The notes beneath the pieces were generated by a model. That model did no database searches and was not told the origin of the DNA. It saw only the letters and a program-made list of their open reading frames with translations. The position numbers and the translations under genes were made by a program. Positions 10,692 to 63,080 of a stretch of 64,000 nt of DNA are shown here, in pieces (the first letter of the stretch is position 1; every line of letters begins with the position of its first letter). This stretch comes from a virus: positions 1 through 64,000 of IMG/VR virus record IMGVR_UViG_3300029286_003706. One strand, written 5' to 3'.

Positions 10692-11915
10692 CTATATTTC
10701 TATTCGTATCATTTTATCATTGTTGATATTATAATACATCTGATTCAGATTGAAATCTAAATCGTGGGTGAACCATACACCCTTAACTTTTTTACCGATA
10801 TTTATCGCTGAATTTAAATCACGATCTATAAACAAATCTTTTGACACTTCCACAATTCTGTTATCTAATTGACTAGAAAACATAATTTCATCGGTTAAAC
10901 AATTTTGTTGTGAAGTATAGGCTTCATTTACATGATAATGATCAATATTTACTTTTTTGGATTTATATTCCAGAAAAGTTTTAAATCTACCCAGTGCAAG
11001 GGTTGATTTAGATATTCCACTTAATTTTTTATTTTCTTTACAAATTACCTTTTTCACTTTTAAATCACCAATAATTAATGAACCAATATTATTTTCGACA
11101 CATTCGTTAACTATATATGTTGACACTTTATGTTGGAAATCAATTACTTTATTTGATAATTTTCTTTTTTGTTTCTTAAATATATCATTTATTTTTTTAT
11201 ATTTATTACTATATTTCTTTTTTTTATCTTTAATTGATTGAAGATGTTCAATAGTTTTTTCTAGTTTATTTAGTTTAAAATTTTTAATTTGAATATTATT
11301 CATACAATTTGAATAACTGGTAACAATATTACTATATCCCAAATCAATTGACATAAAATTATTTTTATTTAATTTATTGTTTGATGATTTTTCAGTATAA
11401 ACAAAAACTACATAATAATCATTTTCATTTTCACGTTTAAAAGTAATAGTTTTAATATTTTCATTATTTATTATTGAACAATATCCCGGAAGATTGATTA
11501 CTAATTTCTTAGATAAATCCTGTGATGTGTCCAAAAGATTTATAATTAATTTATCACCAATGATTTTAAATCCACCCATACCTTTATTATAATCAAGGAT
11601 AAACGAAGTAAAATATTTATATGATTTGAATTTATACGGAAATTTAGAGGTAATATCCTTTTTACGTTTTTCATAAAACGATTTAATATTATTAGTTAAA
11701 TTTTTACAAGTATTTTGTGCGGATTTACTATTTATTGTTAATTTATTTGAAGATCTATAATCAACATATTTATCGTTTAATTCTTTAAAAGTTAATGTTT
11801 TTTCTTTAATACTATTCAATAAATGATTATATAATAAACGATGTTCATTAGAAAGAGTTTCCAATTTTATTTTTTGATTATAGTTTAATATCAATTTAAC
11901 TTTTAACGATAACAT
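10692..11915 (-). CDS. tnpB: TnpB-like RNA-guided nuclease, zinc finger degenerate
   Basis: 407 residues. The RuvC core is present: SIDLGYSNIVT (first Asp), LIIGDLKVKK at the second position, and DRDLNSAINI (third Asp). The second motif reads G-D where many TnpBs have E-D. The usual four-cysteine zinc finger between TSQQNC and DRD is missing, only one Cys remaining. A basic stretch near 225-260 fits the RNA-binding part. No TnpA transposase is nearby. Two hairpins near the 3' end (10753-10782) could belong to the guide RNA scaffold. Free-standing TnpBs in phages can act as homing or regulatory elements. Confidence 0.8.
   Translation of the reverse strand: MLSLKVKLILNYNQKIKLETLSNEHRLLYNHLLNSIKEKTLTFKELNDKYVDYRSSNKLTINSKSAQNTCKNLTNNIKSFYEKRKKDITSKFPYKFKSYKYFTSFILDYNKGMGGFKIIGDKLIINLLDTSQDLSKKLVINLPGYCSIINNENIKTITFKRENENDYYVVFVYTEKSSNNKLNKNNFMSIDLGYSNIVTSYSNCMNNIQIKNFKLNKLEKTIEHLQSIKDKKKKYSNKYKKINDIFKKQKRKLSNKVIDFQHKVSTYIVNECVENNIGSLIIGDLKVKKVICKENKKLSGISKSTLALGRFKTFLEYKSKKVNIDHYHVNEAYTSQQNCLTDEIMFSSQLDNRIVEVSKDLFIDRDLNSAINIGKKVKGVWFTHDLDFNLNQMYYNINNDKMIRIEI
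10753..10782 (-). ncRNA. Candidate TnpB guide-RNA scaffold hairpins
   Basis: Inside the tnpB 3' end, GGGTG (10766-10770) pairs with CACCC (10778-10782) and an adjacent AGATT/AATCT stem precedes it. TnpB guide RNAs normally overlap the 3' end of the gene, so the place is right, but the boundary and guide are not visible. Confidence 0.25.
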
Positions 11916-18097: not shown

Positions 18098-18532
18098 ATG
18101 AAAAGAGAACATAAATGGGATAAGGATGATACTATCATCGCCCTATATTACACAAAATTTGGTATAAAACATCTTCCGGTTAAAGATGAAAAAGATTTAG
18201 CTGAAAATATTATTGGGTCATCTTTGGATTCACTTAAAATGTTATCCACCACTTTGGGAAAAACACATGATGTGAGTTTTTCAAAAATTCAAAGGGAAGT
18301 TGTTGATGAATTCAAAAAAATGCAAGAAACTGATTTTCGGGATGTTGTTCTTGAAATCTTTTCTGATACTGAACGAAAAGTTGTTGTTGAAGAAAGAATC
18401 AAGGATCGAAAAGAAAATGAAAAAGAAGAAAAAGCAAAGGAAGAAAAGAAAAAATTGGATTCCATTTTTCGGAAAATGGGGAAAGACCCATCAAAAATGA
18501 GGAGTGTTGGTGTAAGACCTAAAGAATTTTAA
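18098..18532 (+). CDS. Hypothetical protein with highly charged helical tail
   Basis: 144 residues. N-terminal KWDKDDTIIALYYTKFGIKHLP...IIGSSLDSLKMLS resembles small helical domains seen in phage and HNH-associated proteins, but I cannot name it. Residues 100-125 are almost all Lys/Glu/Arg (coiled coil). The 3' end overlaps the convergent endonuclease by 42 nt. Confidence 0.65.
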   Translation: MKREHKWDKDDTIIALYYTKFGIKHLPVKDEKDLAENIIGSSLDSLKMLSTTLGKTHDVSFSKIQREVVDEFKKMQETDFRDVVLEIFSDTERKVVVEERIKDRKENEKEEKAKEEKKKLDSIFRKMGKDPSKMRSVGVRPKEF

Positions 18533-20194
18533 GCTTCCAGAATCATAAATACGATAAATTTTTCTTTCTAACATGATTTCATGTTCGGTTTTATTTGGAT
18601 CAAAACCATCACGAATTAATTTATCTTTTCTAAAATTAAATCTATGTTTTCTAACACCATTCACTACATAATAGTAGTCGGGTGGTGTTTTACTTAGAAA
18701 TGTAAAACCTAATTTTTGATATAATTCACCCTGACTCCAAGAACGATCAGTACAACTAATCACTTCTTTTGGATTATAAGTTTTGATGAAATATTTAAAT
18801 AATTTTTCGGCACTACCCACTACTGATGTGTTTAATTTACTACAAAATATCAACATTTCATAAACACCATCAGAATTACTTTGTTTCATAAATTTACGTT
18901 TCGATCCAAAAGTCATTAAAGACACCAATTCATCATTGTAAAATAATCCTAATTTAATAGGTGAACCAACAAAACCCTGTAAATGGTTTTTTTCTAGAAA
19001 ACAACGAACTAATTTATTATCTATTATTTCTTTTATGATACATTTACGGGCATAAATTTTATTTGGTGTTTTTCCAAGTAAATTTAAGATTCTAGATTTA
19101 ACAATTTCCTGTTTAAATACCCAATCATCTTGAAAAATATGTATTAATTTAATATTAATACTTTCTGATAGTTCTGTTTTAATTGAATGATAATTGTTTT
19201 CTTTTTCTTTTTCATTATGCCAATAAACACCATTAAACTCAAACGCCAATTTCAAATCTGGTAAATAAATATCTAATTCATATGGTGAAATTATATTTCT
19301 TTTATTTAATTGAATTTCATTATTATAATTTTCTTTAATGAAATTTTGTAAATCTTTTTCTTGATTGGAAACTGAATCATTAAATGGATTACATATTATA
19401 CAATATGGTATTTTATATTTATATCTTTGAATTAAATTATTTATTTTTATATCGAAAATAGTTTTACATTTATCACACTTTATTGTATAAACACCTTTAT
19501 TAAAAGAAACTATTTCACAATTATATTTATCTATTGATTTTTTTAATTGTTTATCTTTATAAATATCAGATGTCATATAATTTTCAGAACCATATTTTTC
19601 AATATTAGTTTTTATCATTTTTTCTTTTATTGTGTCAGATTTAATGGGAAAATTTACACCGAATTTTTTAAAATTGGAATTTTTCATTTTTTCTTTAATT
19701 TCATTATTTAAAAAAAATGTATTATTTTTAATTTTCGTTTCTTTAATTTTATTTTTAACTTTATCAGATTTGGATGGATGACCACCATATATATATATAC
19801 AAGTATCATTTCTTTTTTGATGATTTAAATAATTTTCATTACCATATTTTTTTAACTTTGTATGTTTAGATTTTTTTATGATATCTTTATTTTGAAAAAC
19901 ATTTTCAGTACCATAAATTTCTATATTTGTTAATTTTCTTTTCTCACTTGAACATTTATTTGAACAAGAATAATAATTATATTTTTTAATATTTTTGTTA
20001 TAATTATAAAATGATATAATCTTTTCTTTATTACATACATCACATTTTGCTAAAATTTTAACACCAGATCCTTTAGATAAAATTTCTATGGGAATTTCTA
20101 TAATATCATTAAAATTAAAATTATATCCTAATTCTTTATAATATTTATAATTATTTGGATTGATTGTTATTTTTACACTGGTTGTTATTAACAT
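18491..20194 (-). CDS. Large homing endonuclease: zinc-finger domain, VSR-like nuclease, GNAT-like tail
   Basis: 567 residues. Residues 1-90 hold the shared N-terminal domain (VKITINPNNYKYYKELGYN...CDVCNKEK...YSCSNKC). Residues 90-215 are K-Y-G-x-E-N-type repeats. A second Cys pair module (IKCDKC...CIIC) follows. The VSR-like core is LKLAFEFNGVYWHNE...LIHIFQDDW (about 310-355). The end (about 385-550: FLEKNHLQGFVGSPIKLGLFY...VISCTDRSWSQGELYQKLGFTFLS) looks GNAT-like. Close homologue of 61545-63080. Sits 2 nt downstream of the uvsW-like gene, a typical homing location next to a conserved phage gene. Confidence 0.8.
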   Translation of the reverse strand: MLITTSVKITINPNNYKYYKELGYNFNFNDIIEIPIEILSKGSGVKILAKCDVCNKEKIISFYNYNKNIKKYNYYSCSNKCSSEKRKLTNIEIYGTENVFQNKDIIKKSKHTKLKKYGNENYLNHQKRNDTCIYIYGGHPSKSDKVKNKIKETKIKNNTFFLNNEIKEKMKNSNFKKFGVNFPIKSDTIKEKMIKTNIEKYGSENYMTSDIYKDKQLKKSIDKYNCEIVSFNKGVYTIKCDKCKTIFDIKINNLIQRYKYKIPYCIICNPFNDSVSNQEKDLQNFIKENYNNEIQLNKRNIISPYELDIYLPDLKLAFEFNGVYWHNEKEKENNYHSIKTELSESINIKLIHIFQDDWVFKQEIVKSRILNLLGKTPNKIYARKCIIKEIIDNKLVRCFLEKNHLQGFVGSPIKLGLFYNDELVSLMTFGSKRKFMKQSNSDGVYEMLIFCSKLNTSVVGSAEKLFKYFIKTYNPKEVISCTDRSWSQGELYQKLGFTFLSKTPPDYYYVVNGVRKHRFNFRKDKLIRDGFDPNKTEHEIMLERKIYRIYDSGSLKFFRSYTNTPHF

Positions 20195-21812: not shown

Positions 21813-22030
21813 TTTAAAGGACTCAAATATCGTTTATATCCAAATGATGAACAGAAAATTTTGTTGGGAAAACATTTTGGTTCGGTTCGTTTCGTATACA
21901 ATTTAGCATTAGAAACAAAAATGAATGCATATAACGGAAATAAAATAAATTTATCAAGATTTGATTTACAAAAACAAGTGGTGGATTTGAAACAAGATTG
22001 TGAGTGGTTAAAAGAAATACACCAAACATA
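21813..22030 (+). pseudogene. Truncated TnpB N-terminal fragment
   Basis: The frame starting FKGLKYRLYPNDEQKILLGK...SVRFVYNLALETKMNAY...LKQDCEWLKEIPP is the HTH-like N-terminus of IS605-family TnpB. It has no start codon and loses similarity after about 72 residues, running into the next gene. It is not a copy of the tnpB at 10692-11915, whose N-terminus differs. Confidence 0.75.
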
Positions 22031-30770: not shown

Positions 30771-31214
30771 ATGAAAAATCTAAAAACGTTTGAAAGTTTT
30801 AACGTTAAAAAACAAGAACAAAAAGGATTTACAAGTAATATAGAAAATGACACTTTGAAAAATGATAATTTTAGAAAAGTGTTATATACGAGTAAACATA
30901 TGCAACTTGTATTAATGAGTTTAAAACCCGGTGAAGATATTGGAAAAGAAACACATACTAATGTTGATCAATTTTTTAGATTTGAAGCTGGTAATGGTAA
31001 ATGTATTGTTAATGAAAATGAATACTTAGTAAATAATGGTGATGTTTTAATAGTACCATGTGGTAGTACACATAATATAATAAATATCGGAAAATCAGAT
31101 TTAAAAATATACACAATATATACACCACCTAATCATAAAGATGGAATAACATTCGGAACAAAATCCGAAGCATCTAATAGTAAAGAAAAATTTGATGGAA
31201 TAACAACCGAATGA
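30771..31214 (+). CDS. Leader-bearing cupin-domain protein
   Basis: 147 residues. MKNLKTFESFN is the shared leader type. Cupin core: METHTN-like GKETHTNVDQFFRFEAGNGK (metal ligands His, Gln/Glu), then NNGDVLIVPCGSTHNIINIG, the second cupin motif with His. It could be a sugar isomerase-like or dioxygenase-like enzyme, substrate unknown. Overlaps the next gene by ATGA, so it is co-translated with the ADP-ribosyltransferase; a packaged enzyme is unusual and worth testing. Confidence 0.75.
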   Translation: MKNLKTFESFNVKKQEQKGFTSNIENDTLKNDNFRKVLYTSKHMQLVLMSLKPGEDIGKETHTNVDQFFRFEAGNGKCIVNENEYLVNNGDVLIVPCGSTHNIINIGKSDLKIYTIYTPPNHKDGITFGTKSEASNSKEKFDGITTE

Positions 31215-32146
31215 TAACAAAATTTATTCAATACATAAAAGAAAATGATGATTACGATGAAAAACTTGTCAGAATAATGGCTTGGTTATTTATGTCATAT
31301 GTATATGATAATAATGATGGAATGAAAGAATCAAATTGGATTAATGATAACAGAATGGGAATATCTTTTAAATTGGCAATTAAATATTTATCTGAAAATG
31401 GTTTTGTTGAATTTATAAATGATAAATGGAAAATAACAAAAAAAGGAATAGATGAATTATTTTCATTTTTTAAAATTCCCACAAATAGAGATGAATGGTT
31501 GAATTATGATAATAGTTGGTTGAAAAAATATGATACTGTTCAATATCCAATTTCTAGGATTCCAACTGAAATATTTGAAAGAGAATTTGAAAAACACACA
31601 TCAGAAAATATTAAATATATACTTGAAAAAAGTGAATATTATGATATTGGTAAATGGTGGTATAAATATCAAAGAGGTACAATAGGTTGGTGGACAAAAA
31701 TGAACAAATATCTTGGTTTAAAAGGAGATTTAATGCCAGATGTTGATTCACTAATTTTATATAGGGGTATTAATTTAAAATGTGGTTCACCAGATAATGA
31801 AGAATATTTTAATAAAGAAATTTGTATTGGAATAAAAAATGGTGAAATTAAAAAAGGTGATAAAATAAAATGTAATAAATCCAGTTGGTCATTATCATCT
31901 AGTGTAGCTAAATCTTTCGCTAGTGGTAAAAAGGGTTTATCGGATCCAATATCAATGAAAGACACCGAAATCGGTATTGTTTTAAAAAATGAATTTAAAT
32001 CTTCTGAAATTTTATTAGATTCGGATTGGGTTAATAATCATAAATTTTTAAAAGATAAATCTGTATTTCCAAGTGAAATGGAGGTAATTATTCAACCAAA
32101 AACGAGATATGTTGAAATAATTCATATTTTTGATAATAAAAATTAA
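31211..32146 (+). CDS. Alt-like ADP-ribosyltransferase with head-targeting-like leader
   Basis: 311 residues. N-terminus MITKFIQYIKEN is the shared leader (IKE|N). The C-terminal half has the R-S-E triad of arginine-type ADP-ribosyltransferases: LYRG with Arg185, SSWSLSSS with the S-x-S motif near 225-227, and PSEMEVI with Glu289-x-Glu291. T4 Alt ends similarly with PSNEMEVI. T4 Alt is packaged in the head, injected, and modifies host RNA polymerase. The N-terminal 100 residues may be a winged-helix-like domain (IKYLSENGFVEF...WKITKKGIDEL). Confidence 0.85.
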   Translation: MITKFIQYIKENDDYDEKLVRIMAWLFMSYVYDNNDGMKESNWINDNRMGISFKLAIKYLSENGFVEFINDKWKITKKGIDELFSFFKIPTNRDEWLNYDNSWLKKYDTVQYPISRIPTEIFEREFEKHTSENIKYILEKSEYYDIGKWWYKYQRGTIGWWTKMNKYLGLKGDLMPDVDSLILYRGINLKCGSPDNEEYFNKEICIGIKNGEIKKGDKIKCNKSSWSLSSSVAKSFASGKKGLSDPISMKDTEIGIVLKNEFKSSEILLDSDWVNNHKFLKDKSVFPSEMEVIIQPKTRYVEIIHIFDNKN

Positions 32147-32173
32147 CTAAATTAAATTTTGGACTTCCACTAA

Positions 32174-32187
32174 TTAATATATATTTG
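32174..32187 (+). promoter_or_regulatory. Composite promoter: TTAATATATA overlapping TATATTTG
   Basis: A 14-nt stretch (TTAATATATATTTG) contains both the proposed late motif (32174-32183) and a perfect host-type TAnnTTTG box (32180-32187). Drives the noncoding RNA below, possibly both early and late. Confidence 0.5.
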
Positions 32188-32192
32188 TAGTG

Positions 32193-32522
32193 TTGTTCTT
32201 TGATATTTGGTTCCGGACTAAAAACTTAGTTCGGGTAAAATCAATAAAGTAAAAATAATTTTCGGAGCCTACCATAACAGGATGTGCCAACCGTATATAA
32301 ATTATACTGACCGATGGAATGTCGGTTGTTGAACGTGGAGGCCGGCTCTGTGGACGAACGTTTCATTTCGGTGAAACCTAAGAAGCATCTTGTCTGTGAA
32401 ACGTTAAAAGAGACGAGTTGAAAGACCCAGAAACCACTATTTAGTGGTCATTCATAATGTTCATCTTTTACCAAAAAATCAAAAGAATAAATTATTAAAA
32501 AACCCCGAATTCGGGGTTTTTT
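32193..32522 (+). ncRNA. Structured noncoding RNA with pseudoknot
   Basis: A 330-nt gene-free stretch, clearly richer in G+C than its surroundings, between a promoter and a terminator. Visible helices: CCGGACTAA/TTAGTTCGG (32213-32221, 32226-32234), ACCGA/TCGGT (32310-32314, 32322-32326), ACGTTTC/GAAACGT (32358-32364, 32398-32404), CTTGTCT/AGACGAG (32389-32395, 32411-32417) and ACCACTA/TAGTGGT (32433-32439, 32442-32448). The third and fourth cross, forming an H-type pseudoknot. No T-arm, tag ORF or RNase P core was found. No long ORF. Identity unknown. Confidence 0.7.
32497..32522. terminator. Bidirectional Rho-independent terminator
   Basis: CCCCGAATTCGGGG (32503-32516) between an A-tract and a T-tract. 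Ends the noncoding RNA and the leftward polymerase-like gene. Same CCCCGA stem as the terminator at 5702-5731. Confidence 0.85.
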
Positions 32523-33702
32523 AGTTATTTTTCAAATGTTTTTCAAATATTTCTTTTACTTTATCACGATATTTAACAGGATATATTATTGAATCATGAA
32601 CAGTAAAAATTTTGATATCTTTAATTTGTTTATAAATATCATTTACGACCTTTCCAAATATAAAATCACTTTCCATTCGCATTAGAACGTGACTCAAATA
32701 TCTATAATCACCCTTTGTTTTTTTAATTTTTACAATGAAATCAAATATTTTTGGAAATAATTGTTGAAACATTTGACATTGAATTGATTTTATATTGTTA
32801 TGTCCAAAAAGAACTTTATATGTTAATATTTTAACTAAACTTCTATTGTTTTTTTGATTGAAATAATTTGGAAAATGATAAATAATATATTCATAGAACA
32901 TACCGTTTTCAACAAGTTCTGTAAAAAGTTTTAATTCTTTATCAGAAACATCCATTTCATACCTTAATAATCTGGAAAGAAAAAATGGTTGTGAATTCGG
33001 TAAATCTATTTCTTCAATTTCTTCATCGTCTATTTTGAGATAATTTTTTCGAATTTGTTTTTTAAGAACAGTAAAGTTTGTATGAAATCTACCATAACTA
33101 TCAAAAATGAAATATAAATTTGAATTTTTGATATGATTTATTGAATAGAAATTTTTAAAATATTTTTCATTTGTAATTTCATCACTAGATTTTAAATCAC
33201 TGATACATTGTAAAGATTTCTCACTATTTATAGATACATGCTTAAGATCATCAACCAATCTTTTTCTAATATTTATATCAATTGGACTATCACTATAAAG
33301 TATATTTCTAAGATAATCTTTACTAACTCTTTTATTAATAATATTATCATACACAGTAACTCTTCTGATTTTATCTATATCAAACCAATTGAGGACATAT
33401 GTTCTGGATTTTTTACCAACACAATAATTAGATGTCATTTTCATAAAACCATTATCAACTAAAAAATCAATATAATACTTATAAAATTTACCATATCGAC
33501 TTAATAATATTTTACTAAATAAATTAAATTCATAATCATCAACATCATAATCATTTGCATTTAATTGAAATTTAATAATTATATCGTTAATAACATTTAA
33601 CAAATTAGATGTTTTTAACATTTTTCCATTATATTCGATAAATGGTGTTTTATTTAAAAAAATGAATTTTTCTGGACAAAAGAATTTCATTCCCTTTTTC
33701 AT
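32521..33702 (-). CDS. Divergent family-A-like polymerase palm protein
   Basis: 393 residues. In the C-terminal half: DSYGRFHTNFT (201-211), motif-A-like EIDLPNSQPFFLS with Asp233, motif-B-like LVKILTYKVLFGHN (289-302; Lys291 and the aromatic-Gly end) and motif-C-like FTVHDSIIYP with His369-Asp370. Order and spacing fit the palm/fingers of Pol I or T7-type RNA polymerases, but the protein is much shorter and lacks an exonuclease domain. Could be a replication, primase-like or transcription enzyme. Its start overlaps the upstream exostosin-like gene by 4 nt. Confidence 0.55.
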   Translation of the reverse strand: MKKGMKFFCPEKFIFLNKTPFIEYNGKMLKTSNLLNVINDIIIKFQLNANDYDVDDYEFNLFSKILLSRYGKFYKYYIDFLVDNGFMKMTSNYCVGKKSRTYVLNWFDIDKIRRVTVYDNIINKRVSKDYLRNILYSDSPIDINIRKRLVDDLKHVSINSEKSLQCISDLKSSDEITNEKYFKNFYSINHIKNSNLYFIFDSYGRFHTNFTVLKKQIRKNYLKIDDEEIEEIDLPNSQPFFLSRLLRYEMDVSDKELKLFTELVENGMFYEYIIYHFPNYFNQKNNRSLVKILTYKVLFGHNNIKSIQCQMFQQLFPKIFDFIVKIKKTKGDYRYLSHVLMRMESDFIFGKVVNDIYKQIKDIKIFTVHDSIIYPVKYRDKVKEIFEKHLKNN

Positions 33703-34909: not shown

Positions 34910-35236
34910 TTAAATCGAAAATTCATCTTCTATTAATCCTTTAAGATTTTTTAAATTTATTTTTAATTCCGGTTCTGATGATTTCAATAAACTTTTGAAG
35001 TAAGAAAATGGTGGTTTTTTCTTACTTAGACTGTCATTTAAGATTTTATTTGTTTTTAGAATATCTAAAACTAATCTATATTTTCTTAGATTTGTTTGAT
35101 ATAATTTTTCTAATTCATTATAATATATTTCTTGCAACTTTTTCTCTAATGGTTCAAAATCAGATTCCATATCGTAATATTTTTTATCAACGAAATGTCT
35201 ATCTTCATTCAAAAAGTCTTTAAATTTAGTTATCAT
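34910..35236 (-). CDS. Leader-bearing helical protein
   Basis: 108 residues: MITKFKDFLNEDRHF is one of the clearest copies of the shared leader (LNE|D). The body is strongly helical and charged, like T4 internal head proteins. Its ATG shares one base with the stop of the upstream gene. Confidence 0.75.
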   Translation of the reverse strand: MITKFKDFLNEDRHFVDKKYYDMESDFEPLEKKLQEIYYNELEKLYQTNLRKYRLVLDILKTNKILNDSLSKKKPPFSYFKSLLKSSEPELKINLKNLKGLIEDEFSI

Positions 35237-36162: not shown

Positions 36163-36711
36163 ATGATAACCAAATTTCAAATATATGAAGCTCAAATTAG
36201 AGATTGTATTGAAAAAACTAAAAAATCTAAATATAAATCTAATCCAGATATAGAATCTTATATTAATAAAAGTGCTAATCGAAAATTTGAAGATGATTCA
36301 CCTTTATTGTATACTGTTTATTTGGAAGATTATGATATAAATTTAAATTTTGAATACTATGATACTCCATCTCATAGTATAAAAGAGAAAATAAAAAATA
36401 GAACATCACTCAAAAGTGTATCAGAATTTAATGATGTTTTTGAAAAAACTATAAAAACTATAATACCAGATAAATTAGGAATTGGAATAGATAAAATTGA
36501 TAAAAAAGGTTGTTATGCTCTTTATTTAATGGAAAATAAATTTTTTATTTTAATAGATATTGATCCAAATTCTTTAATCGAAGGTTATTTTATTGATAAA
36601 TATGGTAGAAAAACTACAAAAAAATATCATTCCTTTGTTATCACAATACACGATAAATCTAGCATTGATAGATATTATAAAATGTTTGATATAGATGATA
36701 GTAATTTTTAA
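36163..36711 (+). CDS. Leader-bearing protein
   Basis: 182 residues: MITKFQIYEAQ gives IYE|A, an exact fit to the T4 gp21 protease rule ((I/L)-x-E before A/G). The rest is mixed alpha/beta with YGRKTTKKYHSFVITIHDKSSIDRYY near the end. No family recognised. Confidence 0.7.
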   Translation: MITKFQIYEAQIRDCIEKTKKSKYKSNPDIESYINKSANRKFEDDSPLLYTVYLEDYDINLNFEYYDTPSHSIKEKIKNRTSLKSVSEFNDVFEKTIKTIIPDKLGIGIDKIDKKGCYALYLMENKFFILIDIDPNSLIEGYFIDKYGRKTTKKYHSFVITIHDKSSIDRYYKMFDIDDSNF

Positions 36712-37297: not shown

Positions 37298-37989
37298 CTA
37301 AAATTCCTTCGTAGGATTTTTACTATCAAACAATAATTCACATTTCCATCCTTTATGATCTGTTTTTTCTATACTGACCTTAAACCATTTCTCCATAAAT
37401 GATGTTTCAAACAAAATTTTTGAAACCCTCCTGTTATAATATATTCATTGCCAATTGGGTCTATTATTTTATATTTTTTATAGTTGTGATTTTTATCTCC
37501 TGTTTTAGATAATCTAATTTTTTCTTTGGTTTTATCACTATGACCAATACCATATAACGGATGTTTTTCACCAGATATACTTTTACTCTGTTTTTCTTTT
37601 GATTCTTGACTTCTTTTTTTACCCATTAACGACAAAGATATTTTATCTCTTATTTCATTTGTTCTACAATAAAAACCACCATCTCCACCATCCCCACCTT
37701 GAGTCATGTTATATCCTTTTATAAAAGATTCATATTTATCAATGAAAAATATTTCTTTTTCATTGAGTTTTTTTTTATCATCACAAGTGTATAAAATTTC
37801 CCATTCAAAATTTTCTTCACCATATTTACGAATAGCATTATAAAAGATTCTGGGATGACACCCCTTTTTCAAATCATATCCATTTTTAGCTGATCGAATG
37901 TGTATATGTTTGTATTTTTCGAAGTCCTGAATAGTTTTACCTATATACATTTTACCATTTAATTTGTTTTGCACTTTATATATTATCAT
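37298..37989 (-). pseudogene. GIY-YIG/NUMOD homing endonuclease with C-terminal frameshift
   Basis: The intact frame (37369-37989, 206 codons) has the GIY-YIG core IIYKVQNKLNGKMYIGKT, R/E residues, then NUMOD3-type repeats (ISLSLMGKKRS, SGEKHPLYGIGHSDKT). It ends ...HHLWRNGLRSV. In the adjacent frame the sequence WFKVSIEKTDHKGWKCELLF...F continues to a TAG at 37298-37300, matching the HKGW ending of such enzymes. A one-base slip near 37385 therefore truncates the last about 30 residues. It may still be active. Late-type motif 47 nt upstream. Confidence 0.65.
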
Positions 37990-38035
37990 AATCTGTGAAA
38001 TGGTTTTTTATTGTATCATCCATTGATACTAAAAA

Positions 38036-49538: not shown

Positions 49539-50030
49539 TCATCCTTGAAAATTCGAATTTATCATCCTGATCGGACGAACATATGACCAAGCATTTTTCC
49601 ATAAAATGTGTTCCCAACCATTAACAAAATTGATTGTATGAACCATATCAACTAAATTTCCCTGTTCAGTGGAACTCCAATATATAGACATTGGTTCGTT
49701 TGATTCATTTAATTCAAATCCACCTATAATAGTTCTTTGTTTATACATTTCTCGTAGTTCATTAAGTGATGGTAAAAACCAATCTGTATATCCACTTAAT
49801 GTTAAATCTGAACAAATTTTGGCTGATATATTAGATACGTGACAACCATTTATAATATTAACTGTATTACCAGAACCAGACCCAATATCTGATGAAGTTC
49901 CTATTAAAATATTTGGACATCCCCATTGATAAGATCCAAAAATATCATTTTGGGCAGCTATTAAACCACTATCTCCAGAATCCCACGTATAAAATACAGT
50001 ACCACCACTTAAAACATCACCAATATTCAT
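49539..50030 (-). CDS. DUF1566/Lcl-domain protein, adhesin-like
   Basis: 163 residues covering one domain: GGTVFYTWDSGDSGLIAAQND...WGCPN...IGTSSDIGSGSGNT...C...SDLTLSGYTDWFLPSLNELREMYKQR...YWSSTEQ...SYVRPIRMI. That is the DUF1566 (Lcl C-terminal) pattern, often found at the ends of Bacteroidota surface and phage tail proteins. Likely a virion receptor-binding or decoration protein. Late-type promoter 20 nt upstream. Confidence 0.8.
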   Translation of the reverse strand: MNIGDVLSGGTVFYTWDSGDSGLIAAQNDIFGSYQWGCPNILIGTSSDIGSGSGNTVNIINGCHVSNISAKICSDLTLSGYTDWFLPSLNELREMYKQRTIIGGFELNESNEPMSIYWSSTEQGNLVDMVHTINFVNGWEHILWKNAWSYVRPIRMINSNFQG

Positions 50031-54296: not shown

Positions 54297-55425
54297 TATT
54301 ATTCAAATTACAGTAAGCACCAAAGATATTTCTAGATTAAAAGAATATTATGGATTACTTAAAGTTGGAGATATTCAAGATATAAAAATTGATTATTTAT
54401 CAAAAAATAGTTCCAGAAAAATTCTTGTAAAATGTGATATTTGTGAAAAAGAAAAAAAATTATCCTATGGTAAGTATAATAAAAATATAAAAAAATATAA
54501 TATTTATAGTTGTTCTAATAAATGTTCAATAATAAAAAGAGAAAAAAGTAATTTATTGAAATTTGGATGTAAATATTATTCTCAAACGAATGAATATAAA
54601 GATAGATATAAAAAAACATGTTTAGAAAAATATGGTGTTGAAAACTATTTTCAATCTGAGATAGTAAAAAGTGAAATTAAAGAAGTTAATTTGAAAAAAT
54701 ATGGTGTAGAACATCCCACACAGTCAAAATCAATAAGAGATAAAATCAAAATAACGAACGAATCGAAGTCTGATGAAATTAAAAATGAAATGAAAGAAAA
54801 AACAAAACAATCCAATTTAGAAAAATATGGTGTTGAATATTCTTTTCAATCTGATATAGTAAAGAATAAAATTAAAGAAACCAATTTAAAAAAATATGGT
54901 GTTGAATATAGTTCTCAAAATAAAGACAATAGATCAAAATACAAAATTACTTGTTTGAAAAAATATGGAGTTGATAACGTATCCAAATCCGATGAAATTA
55001 AAAAATTAAAACAAGATGTTTGTTTAGAAAAATATGGTGTAAATCACACTTCACAAGTTCCTGAATTTTATATTAGTCAACAAAAATCCGGTTATAGATT
55101 ATTTTTTCACGACAATACAAAACTTAATTATAGGGGAACTTATGAAAAACATTTTTTAGATTATTGTTTTGATAATAATATATTAATTGAACGGGGAAAA
55201 AGAATAAAATATTTATTCGACAATAAGGAACATTATTATTTTTCTGATTTTTATTATGAACCAAAAAATTTGATTATAGAAATCAAAAGTGATTGGACAT
55301 ATAATAAATATAAAATTATCAATGATATAAAAAGAGAAAGTACAGAAAAATTAGGATATAATTATATGTTCATTTTTAATAAAGATTATAAAGAATTTGA
55401 AGAAGTAATTAAATTAAATATATAA
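54283..55425 (+). CDS. Homing endonuclease: zinc-finger N-terminus, K-Y-G-V repeats, PD-(D/E)XK-like end
   Basis: 380 residues from the ATG at 54283 (a TTG at 54262 would overlap more of the RHH gene). N-terminal domain with VKCDICEKEK...YSCSNKCS; seven or eight repeats of about 25 residues with L-E/K-K-Y-G-V-E; C-terminal nuclease HYYFSDFYYEPKNLIIEIKSDW like that of 1994-2785 (YHPDFYIEKLNLIIEIKSDYW). Coupled to an RHH gene. Confidence 0.75.
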   Translation: MIVSDIIQITVSTKDISRLKEYYGLLKVGDIQDIKIDYLSKNSSRKILVKCDICEKEKKLSYGKYNKNIKKYNIYSCSNKCSIIKREKSNLLKFGCKYYSQTNEYKDRYKKTCLEKYGVENYFQSEIVKSEIKEVNLKKYGVEHPTQSKSIRDKIKITNESKSDEIKNEMKEKTKQSNLEKYGVEYSFQSDIVKNKIKETNLKKYGVEYSSQNKDNRSKYKITCLKKYGVDNVSKSDEIKKLKQDVCLEKYGVNHTSQVPEFYISQQKSGYRLFFHDNTKLNYRGTYEKHFLDYCFDNNILIERGKRIKYLFDNKEHYYFSDFYYEPKNLIIEIKSDWTYNKYKIINDIKRESTEKLGYNYMFIFNKDYKEFEEVIKLNI

Positions 55426-61544: not shown

Positions 61545-63080
61545 ATGATATTAACAAAAAATATAAAAGTTGGGATATGTTTTAATAATATTAATCATTA
61601 TAAACAATATTTTGATAATTTAAAAATTGGTGATAAAATAGAAATTCCAATAGAAAAATTATCACCGGGTAGTCATTTGAAAATTTTATCCAAATGTGAT
61701 ATTTGTGGTGTAGAAAAAAATATTCCATATAGAGATTATTTAAATAGTTTTAATAACGGAAATTATTTCTGTTGTAATAAATGTGCATTAGAAAAAAGAA
61801 GAAAAACTAAATTGGAAAAATATAACGATGCAGGATATCATAATATTGAAAAAATGAAAAAAACCAATTTAGAAATATATGGTTTTGAAAACGTTTTCCA
61901 AAACGAAGATATTAAAGATAAAATAAAAGAAACTTGTTACAAAAAATATAAAGTTAAATTTACATCTCAAACAAATATTGTCAAAGAAAAAACAAAAGAA
62001 ACTTGTTACAAAAAATATAAATACCATCACCATTTAAAAAATGTAGAAATATTAAATAAGCTATATAGTACAAATTTAGAAAGATACAAAAATAAATTTT
62101 ATCTTAAATCAACTATTTATAAAAATAAAAGAGTGAATTTTTTGTTGGAAAATTATAATTTAAATGTTATAAATTTTGATAAATCTGTTTATACAATAAA
62201 ATGTGATATTTGTAATAAAGAATATAATATAAAAAATAGTTTGATGCTTCAAAGAATTTTATATAAAACAAAAATGTGTGTTTTGTGCAATCCGATTAAT
62301 TCTTATTGTGAAAGTGGAAAAGAAAATCAACTATCAAATTTTATTAAAAGTTTTTGTGATAATATAATATTAAATGATAGACATTTAATAAAAGAATTAG
62401 ATATTTATTTACCGAATTTGAAATTGGCATTTGAGTTTAACGGAATATACTGGCATAGTGAATTAAATGTTGATAAAAATTATCATCTAAATAAAACTGA
62501 ATTATGTGAACAACATGGGATTCATTTAATTCATATTTATGAAGATGATTGGATATATAAACAAGAAATAGTTAAATCTAAAATACTCGATTTATTAGAT
62601 AAAATACCAAATAAAATTTATGCTAGAAAATGTGAAATTAGAGAAATAATAGATAATAAATTAATTTACTGTTTTCTAGAAGAAAACCATCTACAAGGTT
62701 TTATTGATTCACAAATTAAACTTGGGTTGTTTTATAACGATGAACTGGTTTCTTTAATGATTTTCAGTGAACAACCAGATGGTATTTATGAAATGTTTAG
62801 AGTTTGTAATAAAAATTATATATCAGTTATCGGGGGTTTTAATAAATTGTTCAAATATTTTGTCGAAAAATATAAACCAAAAGAAATTATTAGTTATGTT
62901 GATAGATCGTGGAGTAAAGGCGATTTATATTATAAATTAGGATTTACTTATATTAGTAAAACATCACCCAATTATTATTGTGTAATTGATGGTAAGAAAT
63001 CAAATGGTGATATAATAGACGAAAGAAAAAATTATCACATTTATGATAGTGGAAATTTAAAATTTGTTTATTTTATCTAG
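61545..63080 (+). CDS. Large homing endonuclease, VSR-like, homologue of 18491-20194
   Basis: 511 residues. Same layout as the 567-residue enzyme: N-terminal SKCDICGVEK...FCCNKC domain, short K-Y-repeats, IKCDIC..MCVLC module, VSR-like core LKLAFEFNGIYWHSE...LIHIYEDDW, and GNAT-like tail FLEENHLQGFIDSQIKLGLFYNDELVSLM...YVDRSWSKGDLYYKLGFTY. The end is shorter and diverged (DGKKSNGDIIDE), so it may be slightly truncated. Its 3' end overlaps the convergent virion gene by 8 nt. Confidence 0.8.
   Translation: MILTKNIKVGICFNNINHYKQYFDNLKIGDKIEIPIEKLSPGSHLKILSKCDICGVEKNIPYRDYLNSFNNGNYFCCNKCALEKRRKTKLEKYNDAGYHNIEKMKKTNLEIYGFENVFQNEDIKDKIKETCYKKYKVKFTSQTNIVKEKTKETCYKKYKYHHHLKNVEILNKLYSTNLERYKNKFYLKSTIYKNKRVNFLLENYNLNVINFDKSVYTIKCDICNKEYNIKNSLMLQRILYKTKMCVLCNPINSYCESGKENQLSNFIKSFCDNIILNDRHLIKELDIYLPNLKLAFEFNGIYWHSELNVDKNYHLNKTELCEQHGIHLIHIYEDDWIYKQEIVKSKILDLLDKIPNKIYARKCEIREIIDNKLIYCFLEENHLQGFIDSQIKLGLFYNDELVSLMIFSEQPDGIYEMFRVCNKNYISVIGGFNKLFKYFVEKYKPKEIISYVDRSWSKGDLYYKLGFTYISKTSPNYYCVIDGKKSNGDIIDERKNYHIYDSGNLKFVYFI

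Follow-up and report, generated by a model that had tools for sequence, protein, structure and literature searches.

TnpB is the transposon ancestor of CRISPR Cas12, and its guide RNAs are normally joined to the protein gene, while those of IscB (also omegaRNAs) can be trans-encoded on the bacterial chromosome, away from the nuclease gene. The TnpB guide RNA, termed reRNA or omegaRNA, comprises the 3' end of tnpB, the transposon right end and a guide taken from the flanking DNA (PMC8612924). In ISDra2, this takes the form of a tnpB 3' end and right-end hairpin, with UUC just before the guide (-5 to -3), a conserved GAA further upstream, and a variable, flank-derived guide (PMC8612924, PMC10278001, PMC10097598). 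Guides derived from tnpB elements are also phage-borne, as in the TldR guide RNAs of prophages, which adjoin their protein gene and repress flagellin (PMC13418256); a figure legend in the same paper suggests that a broken tldR locus gives guides in trans. Racrs are solitary guide-RNA-like units behind a promoter in phage that mimic CRISPR repeats (PMC10651486), and omegaRNA splitting has been proposed as the origin of the tracrRNA of Cas12f-type systems, where the scaffold RNA gene lies apart from the nuclease gene (PMC10097598). No phage gene for a TnpB guide RNA standing alone behind its own promoter is described in the literature searched, a scope that leaves out two main TnpB/OMEGA diversity surveys and leaves novelty unproven.

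The locus described here lies in a 64,000-nt stretch of a viral record from IMG/VR (IMGVR_UViG_3300029286_003706), hereafter the window. Base composition along the window is 39–44% G+C at 32200–32424 and about 22–28% in the surroundings, and 32190–32521 folds at -90.8 kcal/mol (z = -3.6), with 0 of 100 shuffles equally good. The G+C-enriched island and structured RNA described in the first-pass annotation are therefore both borne out, the latter also by compensatory changes in its stems. Its exclusion of tRNA and tmRNA agrees with ARAGORN, which finds neither. In an Rfam search, no family reaches gathering score anywhere in the window and the weak matches to the island came mostly from the terminator; membership of a known Rfam family was rejected. 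The RNA is nevertheless identifiable through its IMG/VR homologues, and the earlier label of “unidentified” gives way, on the basis of homology, to that of a TnpB reRNA/omegaRNA scaffold from which the tnpB gene is missing. The parts of this copy are as follows.

21813–22028, + strand: tnpB N-terminal remnant of the same family, without body, 78% identical to residues 2–73
32160–32183, + strand: promoter region, with TGGACTT at 32160–32166 and the phage promoter motif TTAATATATA at 32174–32183
32213–32234, + strand: P0, 5' leader hairpin, found in stand-alone copies only (window, L135, L136, L306); 9 bp in 4/4 copies, both sides changed at 4/9 positions
32268–32290, + strand: leader motif CCTACC-n-ACAGGATGTGCCAA, common to the window, L136 and L306, not L135
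32310–32326, + strand: P1 hairpin ACCGA/TCGGT, start of the part common with tnpB-linked reRNAs; 5/5 pair positions compensated
32311–32421, + strand: residual tnpB C-terminal frame PMECRLLNVEAGSVDERFISVKPKKHLVCETLKETS and stop, with an in-frame TGA before the frame
32331–32340, + strand: GAACGTGGAG, almost invariant; its AACGT pairs with ACGTT at 32401–32405, both sides changed at 1/5 positions
32360–32377, + strand: P3 hairpin GTTTCA/TGAAAC, 92% of cells paired
32415–32428, + strand: P4 hairpin, family form GGRUY GAAA RAYCC, with a single mismatch in this copy; 3/5 pair positions compensated
32434–32447, + strand: P5, the parent transposon's right-end hairpin, shortened here (CCACTACATCTTTAGTGTAGTGG in the tnpB-linked form); 5/6 pair positions compensated
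32450–32455, + strand: ATTCAT, scaffold 3' end, the last bases common to the copies
32456–32475, + strand: presumed guide AATGTTCATCTTTTACCAAA, different in every copy, its role assigned by homology (PMC8612924)
32501–32522, + strand: terminator hairpin and T-run, in common with the convergent gene 32521–33702(-)

The identity of the RNA emerged from a 20-nt piece of the island whose single occurrence in IMG/VR lies at the end of a phage contig of 59 kb. Encoded just upstream there is ICPVCGMKHDRDVNAAKNI, the zinc-ribbon/RuvC-III end of a TnpB, which continues in frame into PMEHRLLNVEAGSVDDRFISVKPKKHLVCETLKKTG and a stop, the DNA of which is the island sequence. Scans with the TnpB tail and the leader motif, and searches of the records behind the matches, placed homologues in 11 further IMG/VR phage contigs, from a few metagenomes and with 26–28% G+C; GenBank phages and plasmids showed no nucleotide similarity to the RNA. 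A complete tnpB ending in island sequence is present on two contigs (L133, 402 aa; L134, 394 aa). The proteins contain the Pfam domains OrfB_IS605 and TNB together with the RuvC D/E/D residues, and by motif appear catalytically intact; a TnpB 63% identical on contig G006 has a shorter version of the scaffold. After tnpB come the P5-type hairpin, TTCAT, and then flank that differs in every copy. A tnpB 3' end, a right end and a variable flank together constitute TnpB reRNA/omegaRNA anatomy, and homology to the 3' end and right end of an IS200/IS605-type tnpB element, seen in L133, L134 and the residual frame (89% identity to residues 358–393 of intact TnpB), shows 32310–32455 to be the scaffold of such an RNA. 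P5, ATTCAT and the flank provide the subterminal hairpin, element end and variable guide.

What fails at this locus is the usual cis linkage to an intact tnpB. Upstream of the residual frame are the in-frame TGA and 120 nt unrelated to tnpB, with no tnpB body, and the 78-kb contig of the window, itself a fragment, carries no cognate intact tnpB, only the N-terminal remnant. As descent and anatomy fit and linkage does not, the RNA is classed as a variant of TnpB reRNAs. It resembles the ISDra2 reRNA in the tnpB 3' end, right-end hairpin, upstream GAA, TTC before the guide and flank-derived variable guide; it differs in being unlinked from tnpB, in lacking a left end, and in being equipped with a phage promoter and a leader hairpin of its own. 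By analogy with the ISDra2 omegaRNA pseudoknot, the GAA of GAACGTGGAG could pair with the TTC that directly precedes the guide; both segments occur in the copies almost without variation, an invariance that cannot itself show pairing.

The promoter motif TTAATATATA, which begins exactly at 32174, has 129 copies in ten non-duplicate contigs, 88 of them at most 120 nt ahead of the start of a same-strand ORF (median distance 21 nt), against 5.8% for random positions; the reversed string has 24 copies. Owing to this enrichment upstream of same-strand ORFs, TTAATATATA is taken as a general promoter motif of the phage, from which a transcript would start near 32190. The block GGACTT..TTAATATATA also precedes intact tnpB genes and other stand-alone copies. 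Of the composite early/late promoter proposed earlier, the motif at 32174 stands, but no support was found for its composite early/late nature, whereas the notion of a noncoding phage RNA with its own promoter holds, with constraint at the RNA level. The “strong terminator” is likewise present as a hairpin, but goes with the site and not with the RNA, as the syntenic contig G001, which lacks the RNA, has a similar CCCC..GGGG hairpin and T-run at the same place. In G001, the flanking genes are 68–94% identical and other genes replace the RNA; the RNA was therefore gained locally, unless G001 has lost its copy. At about 37971–38012 of G001, syntenic to the RNA locus, lies a TnpB tail remnant of another type.

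The convergent neighbour, 32521–33702(-), has no family match, and its product ends VHDSI, polymerase-motif-like by eye. A relative about 70% identical is found in G001, although a peptide-pattern search of IMG/VR for relatives returned none, and the 735-kb phage LR756501 matches at the DNA level in this downstream gene only. The gene just upstream of the RNA, 31211–32146(+), has no Pfam or PHROG match, and its single-sequence AlphaFold model (pLDDT 33) was discarded. It carries LYRG, SSSVAKSFAS and EMEV motifs, ADP-ribosyltransferase-like, together with an N-terminal motif (MITKFxxFxE / MKTFEQFINES) that recurs at 30771–31214, 34910–35236 and 36163–36711 and in many ORFs of related contigs. 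This motif starts 68 of 557 ORFs; shuffling leaves 18, and an internal control position gives 12 of 481. Capsid-targeting sequences of similar appearance are carried by Alt and the internal proteins of T4, and these phages may accordingly package many proteins. With both the N-terminal motif and the ADP-ribosyltransferase-like motifs, the 31211–32146(+) product may be an Alt-like injected enzyme. Elsewhere in the window are a homing endonuclease at 18491–20194(-) (PHROG 3339, E 2e-117), a second homing-type element in the phage, and coding repeats with a 69-nt period at 54535–54918 and 61851–62021.

Evidence for constraint on the RNA comes from several directions. When distinct copies are aligned by hand, pairing holds in 200 of 204 cells, a figure to be read with the arms being few and picked by eye, a choice that favours pairing. 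A MAFFT alignment of nine copies gave 96% paired (27–42% with partners slid) and four pairs changed on both sides, against a shuffled mean of 1.2. A covariance model, R1, built without L306 and without the tnpB-linked copy of G006, finds both (E 6e-12 and 3e-4, respectively). Between G004 and G005, synonymous changes number 2 of 32 in tnpB codons overlapping the scaffold and 87 of 290 elsewhere (p = 0.003). Crossing helices had previously been proposed, pairing 32358–32364 with 32398–32404 (ACGTTTC/GAAACGT) and 32389–32395 with 32411–32417 (CTTGTCT/AGACGAG). Both complementarities exist, but the pairings that compete with them have better support (P3 and the AACGT/ACGTT helix for the first, P4 for the second), and they were rejected as the main fold; L306, a divergent homologue, lacks the first, and L305 lacks the second helix's 3' arm.

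Five stand-alone copies were found, all with different guides: the window copy, L136 (identical in G002 and G003), L135 and L305 (both in G006), and L306 (identical in G005 and G011). In L305, a short form, P1 follows the promoter directly. Intact tnpB shares a contig with one stand-alone copy in G005 and with two in G006, and TnpA was found in none of the 11 contigs, all of which are fragments and hence weak evidence of absence. A stand-alone copy could have arisen through an internal deletion that took tnpB and left promoter and right end, as a MITE-like, decaying and functionless remnant. In the window the residual frame is still open and P4 is mismatched, as expected of a recent remnant; this counts against a guide gene, and makes decay the strongest rival for this copy taken alone. 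Other fragments in these phages point the same way, including the N-terminal remnant at 21813–22028, L131 (a tnpB truncated at the zinc ribbon), a solo right-end hairpin piece without scaffold at 49826–49862 of G009 (CATCTTTAGTG loop, GTTCAT end), and the decayed left end retained in L135. Against this, P0, with its four compensated positions, is common to stand-alone copies at different loci; the window copy and L136, which occupy unrelated loci and have unrelated guides, show 96% identity in the leader and 91% in the core; and L305 and L306 have lost the tnpB frame and kept the stems. Decay without function is thus considered rather unlikely.

The ends of the element bear on the same question. 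The mobile parent has a left-end hairpin, ACGACATCTTTAGTGTCGT, which is missing in the window, L136, L305 and L306, leaving no sign of ordinary mobility in these four. The right-end hairpin of the window, L136 and L305 deviates from the mobile form and still pairs, and this combination of an altered but paired right end with a missing left end favours an RNA role over transposition. TTTAA precedes three left ends, and at the tnpB site of G004, two related phages without tnpB have TTTAA just before the counterpart of the guide. From these left ends and this one comparison of occupied and empty sites, the window copy having no left end of its own, we take TTTAA as the putative target-adjacent motif. 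Scans found no convincing target for the window guide: one contig matched in an 18-mer guide scan, without the TTTAA motif, and a TTTAA + 13 nt scan gave 22 matches that end at 13–14 nt, as by chance, the best (17/20) being one recurrent sequence. Across 12 contigs, no guide target with a 13-nt seed beside TTTAA turned up.

Taken together, the locus is best read, with a probability of about 0.6, as a phage gene for a stand-alone guide RNA, acting in trans with a TnpB encoded elsewhere in the phage. For the window copy this reading draws on the identity of the scaffold, the promoter motif, a leader hairpin of its own, the loss of the tnpB body, the stand-alone relatives and the constraint on the RNA. 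Transcription would begin at about 32190, TnpB made elsewhere in the phage genome would bind the scaffold in trans, and the ~16–20 nt after ATTCAT (AATGTTCATCTTTTACC) would serve as guide. The complex would then cut DNA in which TTTAA is followed by a guide match, the predicted target being TTTAA + AATGTTCATCTTTTAC. As in the parent transposon, the guide comes from the DNA that adjoins the RNA gene. The most likely outcome would therefore be cleavage of the genomes of sibling or competing phages in which this site is without the gene, allowing the gene to spread or excluding rivals, in line with the gene-drive or homing logic of TnpB. Such a gene drive has been shown for IS elements in plasmids (PMC11870625).

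Of the roles suggested in the first-pass annotation, packaged RNA has no support here, a decoy survives as a minority reading, and a regulator would need a nuclease-dead partner. As a decoy, the RNA would occupy and block a TnpB or Cas12-like nuclease of the host, a rival phage or a parasitic IS. A lone scaffold that follows a promoter and has no known target would suit this role, for which Racrs, RNA anti-CRISPRs acting on Cas proteins, provide a precedent (PMC10651486). The scaffold is complete, though, and is followed by ordinary flank usable as a guide; the cognate TnpB is encoded by the phages themselves; and 0 of 398 Bacteroidota genomes held a similar scaffold, under strict filters and with no positive control. 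A decoy is accordingly regarded as improbable. RNA-guided repression would call for a nuclease-dead TnpB, one candidate being the divergent TnpB encoded at 10692–11915(-), which has LIIGDL for the RuvC-II LEDL of active relatives, lacks the zinc-ribbon cysteines, and is possibly nuclease-dead or has a moved active-site residue. The catalytic Glu sits elsewhere in some TnpB clades, and this protein may therefore be active; its 3' region is also unlike the present scaffold and is not found by R1, and with its tail unrelated it was rejected as a cis partner. TldR guides set a prophage precedent (PMC13418256), but the phage RNA has no linked nuclease-dead partner: no tnpB-like gene is adjacent, and the divergent TnpB lies 20 kb away with a different 3' end. 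Repression is the least probable of these readings, and very unlikely.

A trans-acting guide gene would also stand apart from the other solitary guide RNAs. In common with Racrs it is a single guide-RNA-like unit behind a phage promoter, but it matches the phages' own TnpB rather than CRISPR repeats, and a usable guide follows. Like the tracrRNA of Cas12f-type systems, its scaffold lies apart from the nuclease gene, yet scaffold and guide form one molecule; a CRISPR/Cas12 tracrRNA proper was rejected, there being no array-like direct repeats in the window. With trans-encoded IscB omegaRNAs it shares the position of an OMEGA RNA away from its nuclease gene, differing in that TnpB and a phage take the place of IscB and a bacterial chromosome. 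Separate, promoter-driven guide genes, several of them beside one TnpB, represent the uncoupling of guide and nuclease that theories of Cas12 origin need, and if the reading is true, a single nuclease could be directed by these phages to several sites. It is possible, though only tentatively proposed, that one TnpB with dispersed, separately transcribed guide RNA genes, each carrying a guide of its own, forms a homing or exclusion system that is programmable and directed against rival phages; if so, this would be a CRISPR-like multi-guide arrangement that has arisen without an array.
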